In this document: piece after piece, positions 45,452-60,790 of the stretch
How the letters are laid out: each line of letters begins with the position of its first letter
How positions within the stretch are numbered: the first letter of the stretch is position 1
Source: Nitrosarchaeum koreense MY1
Lineage (GTDB): Archaea; Thermoproteota; Nitrososphaeria; Nitrososphaerales; Nitrosopumilaceae
DNA length: 64,000 bases
Reading direction: 5' to 3'
Assembly (NCBI RefSeq): GCF_000220175.1
Contig: NZ_AFPU01000001.1
Coordinates: 558,001 to 622,000, forward strand
The notes under the pieces: generated by a model
The model's input: the letters and a program-made list of their open reading frames with translations, nothing else
Told to the model about the DNA's origin: nothing
Databases searched by the model: none
Program-made: the position numbers and the translations under genes

Positions 45452-45598
45452 ATGATTGATGTTAAAGATTTGAAAGTTTGTTCTGATTGTGGAACTGTTT
45501 ATTATGAGAAATTTTCCAGAGGTGTATGTCCTAATTGTCACACAAATAATTATGAACAGATATCAGCTGATAGTGGTGTGGGAAGTTTAGACATATAA
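45452..45598 (+). CDS. Zinc-ribbon microprotein (48 aa)
   Basis: The protein MIDVKDLKVCSDCGTVYYEK continues FSRGVCPNCHTNN and a polar tail. Two CxxC knuckles 12 residues apart define a zinc ribbon. The ATG was chosen because the 18 residues upstream in frame look like chance. Confidence 0.75.
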   Translation: MIDVKDLKVCSDCGTVYYEKFSRGVCPNCHTNNYEQISADSGVGSLDI

Positions 45599-45662: not shown

Positions 45663-45752
45663 TTAATTGGTTACACACTCACATTTTTGTTGTTTTTGAA
45701 ATCTAGGGTATTTGAGTTTATGACATGTTTCACAGTAAGGTTGATTTGACAA
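45663..45752 (-). CDS. Possible Cys-rich microprotein at the end of the zinc-finger cluster (29 aa)
   Basis: A TTG frame encodes QPYCETCHKL followed by QKCECVTN at its end. The frame is open further upstream but lacks a normal start. It lies about 80 nt after the five overlapping zinc-finger genes and may be a sixth member. Evidence is CxxC and CxC only. Confidence 0.35.
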   Translation of the reverse strand: MSNQPYCETCHKLKYPRFQKQQKCECVTN

Positions 45753-45834: not shown

Positions 45835-45966
45835 TTATGAAGAATTTACATTGCCATCGGCATCAAGTAAATTCCCACATATCTGGCATTCCCATCTTTT
45901 ATCAGACATTAACTGATTAACTTCTGTTATTCTTGATGCGTTACAGACTTTACATCTGGTTGACAT
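45835..45966 (-). CDS. Zinc-ribbon microprotein, fifth gene of the coupled zinc-finger operon (43 aa)
   Basis: MSTRCKVCNASRITEV leads to WECQICGNLLDADGN. The two CxxC pairs, 22 residues apart, predict a zinc ribbon. Its ATG shares one base with the stop of the preceding C2H2 gene (TAATG), so translation is probably coupled. Confidence 0.7.
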   Translation of the reverse strand: MSTRCKVCNASRITEVNQLMSDKRWECQICGNLLDADGNVNSS

Positions 45967-46070
45967 TATTTTGATTTTACTAGATGTGTTTTTTCGTGCT
46001 CTCGTACTTGCTCAAATGTATCTGACGTTCCTTCCCACTTAAAATTACACTCTTTGCAACTATATCTCAT
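45966..46070 (-). CDS. Single C2H2-type zinc-finger microprotein (34 aa)
   Basis: MRYSCKECNFKWEGTSDTFE then QVREHEKTHLVKSK. The ligands are Cys5, Cys8, His25 and His29, giving C-x2-C-x16-H-x3-H; the spacer is longer than the canonical 12. It is about 60% identical to the C2H2 protein at 46198-46326. The ATG overlaps the TGA of the upstream zinc ribbon by 4 nt. Confidence 0.72.
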   Translation of the reverse strand: MRYSCKECNFKWEGTSDTFEQVREHEKTHLVKSK

Positions 46071-46198
46071 TTCTCTTCACTGGCTTGCTTCTTCCATACA
46101 TTACATGCAGGACAGCGACTAATGGTTTTGGATAATATCTTTTTTGAAAATACATTACCACAGTTTTCACATGCTTTCAAATCGTTTAGAGTAACCAT
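46067..46198 (-). CDS. Zinc-ribbon microprotein, third gene of the operon (43 aa)
   Basis: MVTLNDLKACENCGNVFSKK, then ISRCPACNVWKKQASEEK. Two CxxC pairs define a zinc ribbon. The ATG overlaps the stop of the C2H2 gene before it by 1 nt, and its TGA overlaps the next ATG by 4 nt. Confidence 0.72.
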   Translation of the reverse strand: MVTLNDLKACENCGNVFSKKILSKTISRCPACNVWKKQASEEK

Positions 46199-46326
46199 TA
46201 TGATGTTGCTTCCATCAAAATTGTTTTTGTGTTTTTCAAATGTGTCTTTTCATGAATTAAAACCTGTTCAAAAGTATCCATCCATCCTTCCCAATGAAAT
46301 TTACAATATTTGCAGTTATACTTCAA
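46198..46326 (-). CDS. Single C2H2-type zinc-finger microprotein (42 aa)
   Basis: MKYNCKYCKFHWEGWMDTFE then QVLIHEKTHLKNTKTILMEATS. The ligand spacing C-x2-C-x16-H-x3-H is identical to the protein at 45966-46070. The start is TTG, overlapping the TGA of the first gene by 4 nt (TTGA). Confidence 0.72.
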   Translation of the reverse strand: MKYNCKYCKFHWEGWMDTFEQVLIHEKTHLKNTKTILMEATS

Positions 46327-46421
46327 TTTTGTTTTGTCTCTTTAGATTCTTTGAATGCGTTTACGTCGTTAGATGTCTTTTTTTGATTTCGTTGTAATTT
46401 TGCAAATAGCTTTTTTAACAT
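46323..46421 (-). CDS. Short basic leader protein of the zinc-finger operon (32 aa)
   Basis: MLKKLFAKLQRNQKKTSNDV and a polar, charged tail, with no Cys. It opens the operon about 20-25 nt after a TTATATG box on the minus strand and overlaps the next gene by 4 nt. It could be a real peptide or serve mainly to load ribosomes for the downstream genes. Confidence 0.5.
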   Translation of the reverse strand: MLKKLFAKLQRNQKKTSNDVNAFKESKETKQN

Positions 46422-46616
46422 ACTCACATAGGTCATATCTTACATATAAGGCAAGGATTCTAACAAAATAGATTTTTTTTCGTAGCTGAGTAGTTAATTC
46501 AGTCCTTCCTTTCAGATATGCAAACTCACACTACTACGATGTTGATAATACATCGATTTTACTTATAGTGTTTTCTCAAATGCGGGTTAATTAGGATGAA
46601 ATGATATATGAATATC

Positions 46617-46715
46617 ATGAATACCTTATCATCTTATTGGCAAAAAATATGCATTGATTGCAAGAGAGTGCATTGCCAAAAGGGATGTAATTGCGATTGT
46701 CATTGGGAGCCATAG
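46617..46715 (+). CDS. Cys-rich microprotein (32 aa), paralogue of 58982-59092
   Basis: ATG-initiated MNTLSSYWQKICIDCKRVHC then QKGCNCDCHWEP. Seven of 32 residues... the Cys/His set is ICxDC, HC, GCNCDCH. It matches the protein at 58982 in the pattern MNT..YW.K.IC.DCKR..CQ.GCNCDCH. Two independent copies in different contexts show that the frame is real. The metallothionein-like C-x-C-x-C-H end suggests zinc or copper binding. Confidence 0.72.
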   Translation: MNTLSSYWQKICIDCKRVHCQKGCNCDCHWEP

Positions 46716-46722
46716 ATGTATT

Positions 46723-46842
46723 TTGCCATATTCAACTGTGACTCAAGATACATGTCCACATGATGCAAAAGTAAAGATGGCAGGATATGCTGGAATGTAT
46801 GAATGTACAAGATGCCATAAATTTATTCGTGATGATAAGTAA
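46723..46842 (+). CDS. Zinc-ribbon microprotein (39 aa)
   Basis: The frame opened by a TTG encodes DTCPHDAKVKMAGYAGMYEC followed by TRCHKFIRDDK. CPH and CTRCH knuckles fit a zinc ribbon. The same frame is open further left, but there it overlaps the Cys-rich microprotein at 46617-46715 in another frame, so the shorter start was chosen. It follows that gene by 7 nt and is probably co-transcribed. Confidence 0.6.
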   Translation: MPYSTVTQDTCPHDAKVKMAGYAGMYECTRCHKFIRDDK

Positions 46843-58981: not shown

Positions 58982-59092
58982 TTAATTTTGTCTGTCTCTT
59001 AATTGATGACAATCACAATTACATCCAGTTTGGCATTTCATTCTTTTACAATCAGAGCATATTTTCTTATTCCAATATGGAGCCGTATTCAA
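58982..59092 (-). CDS. Cys-rich microprotein (36 aa), paralogue of 46617-46715
   Basis: TTG-initiated MNTAPYWNKKICSDCKRMKC then QTGCNCDCHQLRDRQN. The core aligns with the microprotein at 46617 in spacing and in W, K, IC, DCKR, CQ and GCNCDCH. The six Cys and His form a likely metal site. Lone gene between two secreted-protein genes. Confidence 0.7.
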   Translation of the reverse strand: MNTAPYWNKKICSDCKRMKCQTGCNCDCHQLRDRQN

Positions 59093-59200: not shown

Positions 59201-60790
59201 ATGATGTCTAAATTCTGGTTGCTTTACGTAATACTGGCACTTGCTTTTACTTTTCCACTTTCTTATGCTCAACATCATGGTGGTGAACAAGCTCCGCCAA
59301 TCAGCTTTGGCTCTGGTGAGGTAACTGTGAGCACCACATTGTTTCCCGCAGATTTCACTCCTCAAAAATATTCTGATGTGAATTTGAAATTGAGATTTTT
59401 TGACACACAATCCAATGTTAATGTGGAAAATGTAAGTTATAGAGTTCAGATATTTTACGGTGAATCTCTTGTTGCAAATCAAATGTTTTTTGATAGAGAT
59501 GGGGAACTAGTTGTCAAAATACAACCAAAATCAAATTGTACCCAAGAAGATCTATGGAAATGCACAAAATATTATGGTGATGTTGATGCTGTAGTTCCAA
59601 ACGCCTTAACTTCCACGCCTTCTAGCATTCCAGTTATCTCAGGACCCGTTTTTACTCAAAGTGGTCAGTATACCGTAAAAACTGACATAATAGGTGCAAA
59701 AAATCCAAAGACACAAACTTCTCAGGATATTCGCTTTGAAACAATCATAATTATTCCAAATGAACAAGAATTCAAGATATCTTCATCTGGTATTGATTAT
59801 CAAGTTTTTGCAAAAAATTTCCAAGGGCCACTAACTAATTTTCAGTTTGACGATTCATCCAAATCCATTTCTTTTGAAATGCCATTTGATTGGGAACACG
59901 TAGCACATGTGGATTTTGTAAAGAATTACTTTGAAATCCCAAAAAACTTTTTGCCTTTAGAAAATGTTGTTAGCTTTGATGGCAAAGCAAATGGAATACA
60001 GCTCTTTCCAATAGATTTACACTATGACAAATATTCCGACAAAGATAGTAACATACTTCATTTTATGATTCATAACGATGAACTAAAAAAATTCAAAAAT
60101 TCAGACTCTACACTTAAAGTTGTTATTACTCCTGAATCTAATTCATCAATAATTTCTAAAGACCTTTTCTTTGATAATGGCATTAAGGCCATTGCATCTT
60201 ATGATTCTAGATATTCTGAAAGTAAAAATATTTTATTTACCATAGCGTTTTTTGATTCAAAAGGGGAACTATCTAATAGTATTCGATATGGATATGGTAT
60301 AAAGGATCCAACTGGAAAAGACATTGTAAATACTGGTGGAAACCTCAGTCTTTTGGGAATCGAGTTGCCTAATGGCATTGATTCTCAAGTGCTAAACACA
60401 CCTATGCCTGGAAAATATTCTATGCAAATTGTTCTATTAGGAATGGGACAAAACACCTATGATAGACCCATGTTTCAAAAATTTGATTTTGAATTAGGCT
60501 CAGATGTGAAAAAAATTGAATCTCTTGAAATTCCTACATGGATAAAAAATAATGCAGGCTGGTGGGCTGATGGAAAAATAGATGACAGCTCATTTGTTCA
60601 GGGAATTCAATTTTTGATAAAAGAAAAAATAATGAACATTCCTTCTACTCAAAGCTCAGGTAATGGTTCTGATGAAATACCATCTTGGATTAAAAACAAT
60701 GCAAAGTGGTGGGCTGATGGAAAAATAGATGACAGCTCATTTGTTCAGGGAATTCAATTTTTAGTCAAGGCTGGTATAATCAATCCTTGA
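59201..60790 (+). CDS. Large secreted beta-rich protein with duplicated C-terminal 49-aa unit
   Basis: A signal peptide (FWLLYVILALAFTFPLSYAQ) precedes His-rich HHGGEQ and a beta-sandwich-rich region of about 430 residues. Near residue 445 comes IPTWIKNNAGWWADGKIDDS SF-type sequence, repeated 49 residues later. Each unit has a Trp-Trp-Ala core and reads like a small helical binding module. No transmembrane anchor is seen. Cell-surface or secreted role is inferred. ATG-ATG start; either Met may be used. Confidence 0.82.
   Translation: MMSKFWLLYVILALAFTFPLSYAQHHGGEQAPPISFGSGEVTVSTTLFPADFTPQKYSDVNLKLRFFDTQSNVNVENVSYRVQIFYGESLVANQMFFDRDGELVVKIQPKSNCTQEDLWKCTKYYGDVDAVVPNALTSTPSSIPVISGPVFTQSGQYTVKTDIIGAKNPKTQTSQDIRFETIIIIPNEQEFKISSSGIDYQVFAKNFQGPLTNFQFDDSSKSISFEMPFDWEHVAHVDFVKNYFEIPKNFLPLENVVSFDGKANGIQLFPIDLHYDKYSDKDSNILHFMIHNDELKKFKNSDSTLKVVITPESNSSIISKDLFFDNGIKAIASYDSRYSESKNILFTIAFFDSKGELSNSIRYGYGIKDPTGKDIVNTGGNLSLLGIELPNGIDSQVLNTPMPGKYSMQIVLLGMGQNTYDRPMFQKFDFELGSDVKKIESLEIPTWIKNNAGWWADGKIDDSSFVQGIQFLIKEKIMNIPSTQSSGNGSDEIPSWIKNNAKWWADGKIDDSSFVQGIQFLVKAGIINP
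60561..60762 (+). repeat. 55-bp exact direct repeat in the secreted protein gene
   Basis: 60561-60615 and 60708-60762 are identical and 147 bp (49 codons) apart, coding for WWADGKIDDSSFVQGIQF. The DNA identity points to recent duplication or ongoing gene conversion. Confidence 0.92.

Follow-up and report, generated by a model that had tools for sequence, protein, structure and literature searches.

Six Cysteines and One Histidine: A Candidate Zinc-Finger Microprotein Family of the Nitrosopumilaceae

Introduction

The closest known kind of protein to the microproteins described here is that of the haloarchaeal zinc-finger u-proteins. Deletion mutants in this C(P)XCG family, which includes HVO_2753 and HVO_0758, show stress, biofilm, and swarming phenotypes, and these u-proteins are, like our family, archaeal, shorter than 70 aa, present as several paralogues per genome, and equipped with Cys pairs that are thought to hold metal (PMC6562870). 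In contrast, C(P)XCG is absent from every member of our family that was read, the first pair being C-x-D-C-K, the four Cys are replaced by six Cys and a His, and the family is limited to Nitrosopumilaceae in the genomes sampled here. Some of the tiny ORFs that neighbor the microprotein genes fit the u-protein kind better than the family itself does.

Metallothioneins share with the family their small size, richness in Cys, CxC motifs, and Lys adjoining Cys, but the family differs from them in its conserved aromatics, its fixed number of six Cys, its other invariant residues, and the lack of any library match. Classical metallothioneins are largely devoid of aromatics. The N-terminus of 7Fe ferredoxins shows a similar five-Cys spacing, whereas the microprotein lacks the rest of that protein. 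The CXC zinc-cluster domain (tesmin/TSO1, LIN54) shares the C-x4-C-x4-C-x-C spacing and basic residues with a distant branch of the family (type E), but it contains nine Cys as opposed to six; CXC/LIN54 identity was rejected on this count and on hhalign probabilities of 9.9% and 1.1%.

Within the titles and abstract openings reached by our literature search, which covered few subscription papers, neither the family nor a microprotein layer in ammonia-oxidizing archaea was found described. Ammonia-oxidizing archaea do much of the marine and soil nitrification. A microprotein with six Cys and one His in half of their sampled genomes poses the question of a zinc-structured regulator or a copper buffer, and this is testable, as the core is easily synthesized.

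The Two Copies in the Window

The window is the whole 64-kb stretch of Nitrosarchaeum koreense MY1 that was analyzed. Its genome (1.61 Mb, one contig) carries the two copies of the window and a third, more distant one (C1:817413-817532). An earlier note on this DNA had proposed a 32-aa frame and a 36-aa partner on the other strand, and both were confirmed (table 1). The match between them is even fuller than the near-complete Cys agreement claimed there: all six Cys and the His are common, 18 columns are identical, and the cores agree in 16 of 20 residues. The YW pair is found in both, one residue closer to the first Cys in the type A copy, for which an alternative in-frame ATG exists at 46608, three codons upstream. 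All six Cys of the type A protein (19% of its residues) lie in an 18-residue core that includes CxCxC. Both copies possess the features that define the family, that is, the full Cys/His spacing, D14 and R17, and an intact short frame (profiles A2/A3).

The window contains the exact spacing two times, and none of 60 first-order Markov resamples of its 64 kb contains it, in agreement with the earlier opinion that chance is very unlikely. The claim of unlinked contexts held only in part: 12.3 kb separate the copies, and two relatives (G037 and G039) possess this pair too, with unchanged strands and a distance of 11–13 kb, so they are not really unlinked. Type A orthologues in G039, G023, and G037 show 81–91% identity.

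Table 1. Coordinates of the microprotein genes, the upstream element, and the adjacent tiny ORFs in the window
Feature	Position	Strand	Remarks
Type A microprotein gene	46617..46715	+	ATG 46617, TAG 46713-46715; 32 aa, MNTLSSYWQKICIDCKRVHCQKGCNCDCHWEP; C-x2-C-x4-C-x3-C-x-C-x-C-H
Upstream element GGTTAATTAGGATGAA	46585..46600	+	-32 to -17 of the type A gene; putative TATA-type promoter of a leaderless transcript
Type B microprotein gene	58982..59092	-	TTG start; 36 aa; syntenic in G037 and G039
39-aa Cys/His ORF	46723..46842	+	Just downstream of type A; start TTG 46723 or GTG 46738
37-aa ORF without Cys	46323..46436	-	Opens a run of five overlapping ORFs on this strand, divergent to type A
42-aa C2H2-like zinc-finger ORF	46198..46326	-	Conserved in relatives; no Pfam match
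43-aa zinc-ribbon-like ORF	46067..46198	-	Sub-threshold zinc-ribbon matches
34-aa C2H2-like zinc-finger ORF	45966..46070	-	L068 homologue with internal stop
43-aa zinc-ribbon-like ORF	45835..45966	-	Sub-threshold matches
29-aa Cys-rich ORF	45663..45752	-	Among three relatives, match in L004 only
48-aa zinc-ribbon-like ORF (MIDVKDL...)	45452..45598	+	Sub-threshold matches

Distribution and Types of the Family

Profile searches at E ≤ 1e-5 placed the family in 127 of the 250 Nitrosopumilaceae genomes, in 85 of 131 good genomes, and in 15 of 22 genera. Further copies with the same spacing, which the earlier note had suggested to look for, are thus abundant, and its idea of a new mini-family is strongly supported by this distribution, by purifying selection (see below), and by the lack of a library family. 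A single-sequence search at E ≤ 1 matched 180 of the 250 genomes, noise included. In a sample of 398 genomes of the phylum (E ≤ 0.01), 51 matched, 49 of which were Nitrosopumilaceae and just two lay outside, with weak partial matches (E 0.005–0.008). At the level of the order, 16 matches lay outside Nitrosopumilaceae, and the weak ones that were examined proved to be either incomplete frames or a different CxCDCH microprotein. Among named genomes, 84 of 92 stretches with the pattern encode relatives. Titles of the 80 relatives kept refer to Nitrosopumilus, Nitrosarchaeum, Nitrosotenuis, and Nitrosotalea, or else to Thaumarchaeota or uncultured archaea; two entries titled Nitrososphaeraceae (L105 and L118) have match positions equal to those of the Nitrosopumilaceae genomes G045 and G038. 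A viral origin was rejected, as none of the 34 pattern stretches of viral contigs encodes a relative and PHROGs gave no match.

The loci yielded 124 distinct members, sorted by simple patterns into types A (42), B (40, counting L134, L038, and L155, whose N-terminus is C-like), C (30), D (6), and E (6). Proteins are about 31–44 residues long, with medians of 30–36 aa by type. Of the 118 distinct proteins, 117 contain exactly six Cys. An aromatic residue stands ahead of the first Cys in 107 of the 113 that belong to types A–D and in none of the five E proteins as cut there. D14, R17, and D27 are (nearly) invariant beside the Cys. Type E (CLDCKKHRCIIDSCQCSCH) is a distant branch of the family (hhalign 96%, E 3e-9). 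Of 400 genomes from the order, 73 contain it, every one in Nitrosopumilaceae; it is divergent to B in four loci (L070, L157, L165, and L179) and directly follows D in two (L121 and L125).

Copy number ranges from zero to at least six per genome, and some copies are interrupted by stops (e.g., G224:C71 and G130:C80). Two genomes, G089 and G108, have at least six copies each, diverged ones included, and three of those in G108 lie within 2.5 kb (C1:1223535-1226061).

Pfam gave no family for the two window copies at E ≤ 10, and for 38 members its sole match was the unrelated Saf4_Yju2 (E 0.47); NCBIfam contained no match. Profile searches of the PDB returned a single chance-level ferredoxin mutant with profile A2 (1f5c, E 0.25) and nothing with A4. 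Since no Pfam, NCBIfam, or PHROGs family and no PDB relative was found, and C(P)XCG of the closest kind is absent, we judge from the sequences that this is a new family of a known kind, that of zinc-finger-like microproteins of archaea, with a Cys pattern peculiar to it and a putative mechanism.

Coding Evidence

Over a 21-codon core, mean pS/pN was 0.886/0.139 in type A (40 sequences; pS > pN in 778 of 780 pairs), 0.842/0.087 in type B (40 sequences; 780 of 780), and 0.920/0.127 in type C (29 sequences; 406 of 406), after two A and one C sequences were dropped for spacing, stops, or identical cores and types D and E were left out. The resulting pN/pS of 0.10–0.16 applies to loci picked by protein similarity, a choice which favors a conserved core. 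Cys codons interchange freely between TGT and TGC. The codons show purifying selection on the family, and the microproteins are presumably translated. Gene conversion between copies was rejected, the within-genome third-position similarity of A and B being not systematically above that between genomes.

In 36 nonredundant A loci, the element GGTTAATTAGNNTGAA occupies roughly positions -31 to -16 relative to the ATG. Its location and base composition match those of a TATA box, and we infer that it serves a leaderless transcript. In the genome of the window its one exact copy is the one at the 46617 gene. As a genome-wide regulon signal the element was rejected: with up to two mismatches it occurs at 17 places of that genome versus 49 for the reversed control, so there is no enrichment.

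Gene Neighborhoods and the Tiny-ORF Island

Neighborhoods were read in 92 loci whose flanks total 5 kb or more (28 A, 34 B, 25 C, and 5 D). A PF00382 search gave about eight TFB genes per genome (507 matches in 30 genomes, two per gene), from which a TFB gene is expected within 4.5 kb of ~5% of loci. One was found at that distance for 12 of the 28 A loci (one case being a 42-aa fragment), 5 of the 25 C loci, 2 of the 34 B loci, and none of the 5 D loci. These counts mix orthologous loci and are not independent, thus the binomial values for A (1.7e-9) and C (0.006) are too small, and B has no excess (0.48). The arrangements vary widely in distance and strand; a TFB ends 3 bases before the microprotein in L032 and 42 bases before it in L155. 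No TFB is located within 4.5 kb of the window copies.

The synteny of type B is long conserved. UspA is near 21 and CBS proteins are near 18 of the 34 B loci, many of these being one inherited arrangement. In 14 of the 34, a 73-aa ORF with hydrophobic stretches stops 0–1 bases before the B start codon, and a plastocyanin-type protein lies ~0.9–1.0 kb from seven of the 34. The P-type ATPase motif DKTGT was found in none of 1,356 neighbor ORFs.

Tiny zinc-finger ORFs adjoin type A in the window, as they do in many relatives. The five minus-strand ORFs running from 46436 down to 45835 (37, 42, 43, 34, and 43 aa) overlap by 1–4 bases, four of them are zinc-finger-like, and the run is conserved in three relatives; this suggests an operon that encodes zinc-finger microproteins whose translation is coupled. 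Beyond it are two more Cys-rich ORFs, and one more stands just downstream of A, with 82–90% identity in G037, G039, and G023 and with members of its cluster near 8 of 28 A loci. Pfam gave sub-threshold zinc-ribbon matches for 3 of the 10 sequences scanned. The island shows that further tiny genes of this sort are absent from protein-family libraries.

Proposed Role and Alternatives

With a probability of just under one half (about 0.47), the microprotein is a small metal-stabilized adaptor, the metal being most likely zinc, that binds a partner in stress and transcription regulation. The six Cys and the His, the other invariant residues, the aromatic N-terminus, the lack of P-type ATPase neighbors, and the gene islands of A and B favor a metal-stabilized interaction module over a store of metal. 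The protein probably wraps around its metal, and zinc is favored by the zinc-finger-like genes nearby. The seven invariant potential ligands within 18 residues are more than a single tetrahedral site can use, and the simplest arrangement would be a site for two ions that have one Cys in common; the chain would fold around, most likely, two zinc ions with one shared thiolate. The basic face (K16, R17, and K/R/H19) and the conserved aromatics would stay free for contacts, and they suggest a partner, which may be a protein or a nucleic acid. The adaptor may work alongside the other tiny zinc-finger proteins, TFB paralogues (types A and C), or UspA/CBS proteins (type B). The metal, the number of its ions, the partner, and the role are putative, and the shared islands can also mirror common turnover instead of function.

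AlphaFold2, given an alignment of 48 rows, reached a pLDDT of 62.6 and a pTM of 0.25. Structure predictors reportedly misjudge the metal sites of archaeal microproteins (PMC11241148). A wider and more doubtful extension is that a lineage-specific metal-cluster fold acts as a regulator of ammonia-oxidizing archaea together with multiplied TFBs and stress proteins, amid an unrecognized layer of zinc-finger microproteins. The proximity to TFB is worth testing because ammonia-oxidizing archaea change their use of TFBs in biofilms (PMC12448741).

The main rival, less probable than the adaptor, is a metallothionein-like buffer or chaperone, whose six Cys would bind Cu(I) in a Cu4S6-type cluster, or Zn, and store or deliver the metal in a copper-dependent nitrifier. 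The dense core of six Cys and one His, the CxCxC, and the basic residues adjoining Cys agree with such a function. So does the failure to find the Csp-type copper store (PF03860) in any of the 37 Nitrosopumilaceae genomes searched, N. viennensis having one (PMC7785015), but the contrast is weak as PF03860 was found in 1 of 44 genomes and most other genomes of the order also missed it. The conserved aromatics, the invariant D14, R17, and D27, the absence of DKTGT from the neighbors, and the absence of the family from 123 of 250 genomes, all presumably copper-dependent, argue against a buffer. No metallothionein model matched either, and the term metallothionein-like, used in the earlier note, is not supported as a statement of membership.

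An iron-sulfur or redox microprotein with a cluster held by four Cys is improbable. Its C-x2-C-x4-C-x3-C-x3-C spacing coincides with the N-terminus of the 7Fe ferredoxin in the PDB match mentioned above, but that match is at chance level, the remainder of the ferredoxin is absent, and the additional Cys and the His are invariant. Membership in the 7Fe ferredoxins was rejected, the match being to one mutant and 32 aa being too short for the second cluster motif.

Equally improbable is a Cys-rich peptide with some other function, such as an antitoxin-like or mobile-element protein of variable islands. The variable copy number and the broken copies would suit it, and it is opposed by the lack of viral relatives and of PHROGs matches and by the conserved synteny of type B. 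Chance open frames, conceivable for short ORFs, one of them TTG-started, are practically dismissed by the family-wide codon pattern, the 127 genomes, and the resampled windows.

Additional Observations

The 73-aa ORF preceding type B ends with KKGSYKITQRY (e.g., in L053, L054, L136, and L169), and the one copy scanned had no Pfam match. One genome (G040, g11, completeness 97%) is without a UspA match (E ≤ 1e-6) and without the microprotein; the 36 other Nitrosopumilaceae genomes searched have UspA. L192 and L195 (g13 genomes) and L205 encode a conserved microprotein of another sort, MICANCENHKHYECIDCQNNHTTELCNCDCH..., which also ends in CxCDCH and has a different spacing. In the window, positions 59201-60790 (+) encode a predicted exported protein of 529 aa without a Pfam match, which carries two C-terminal repeats of the form IPxWIKNNAxWWADGKIDDSSFVQGIQFL.
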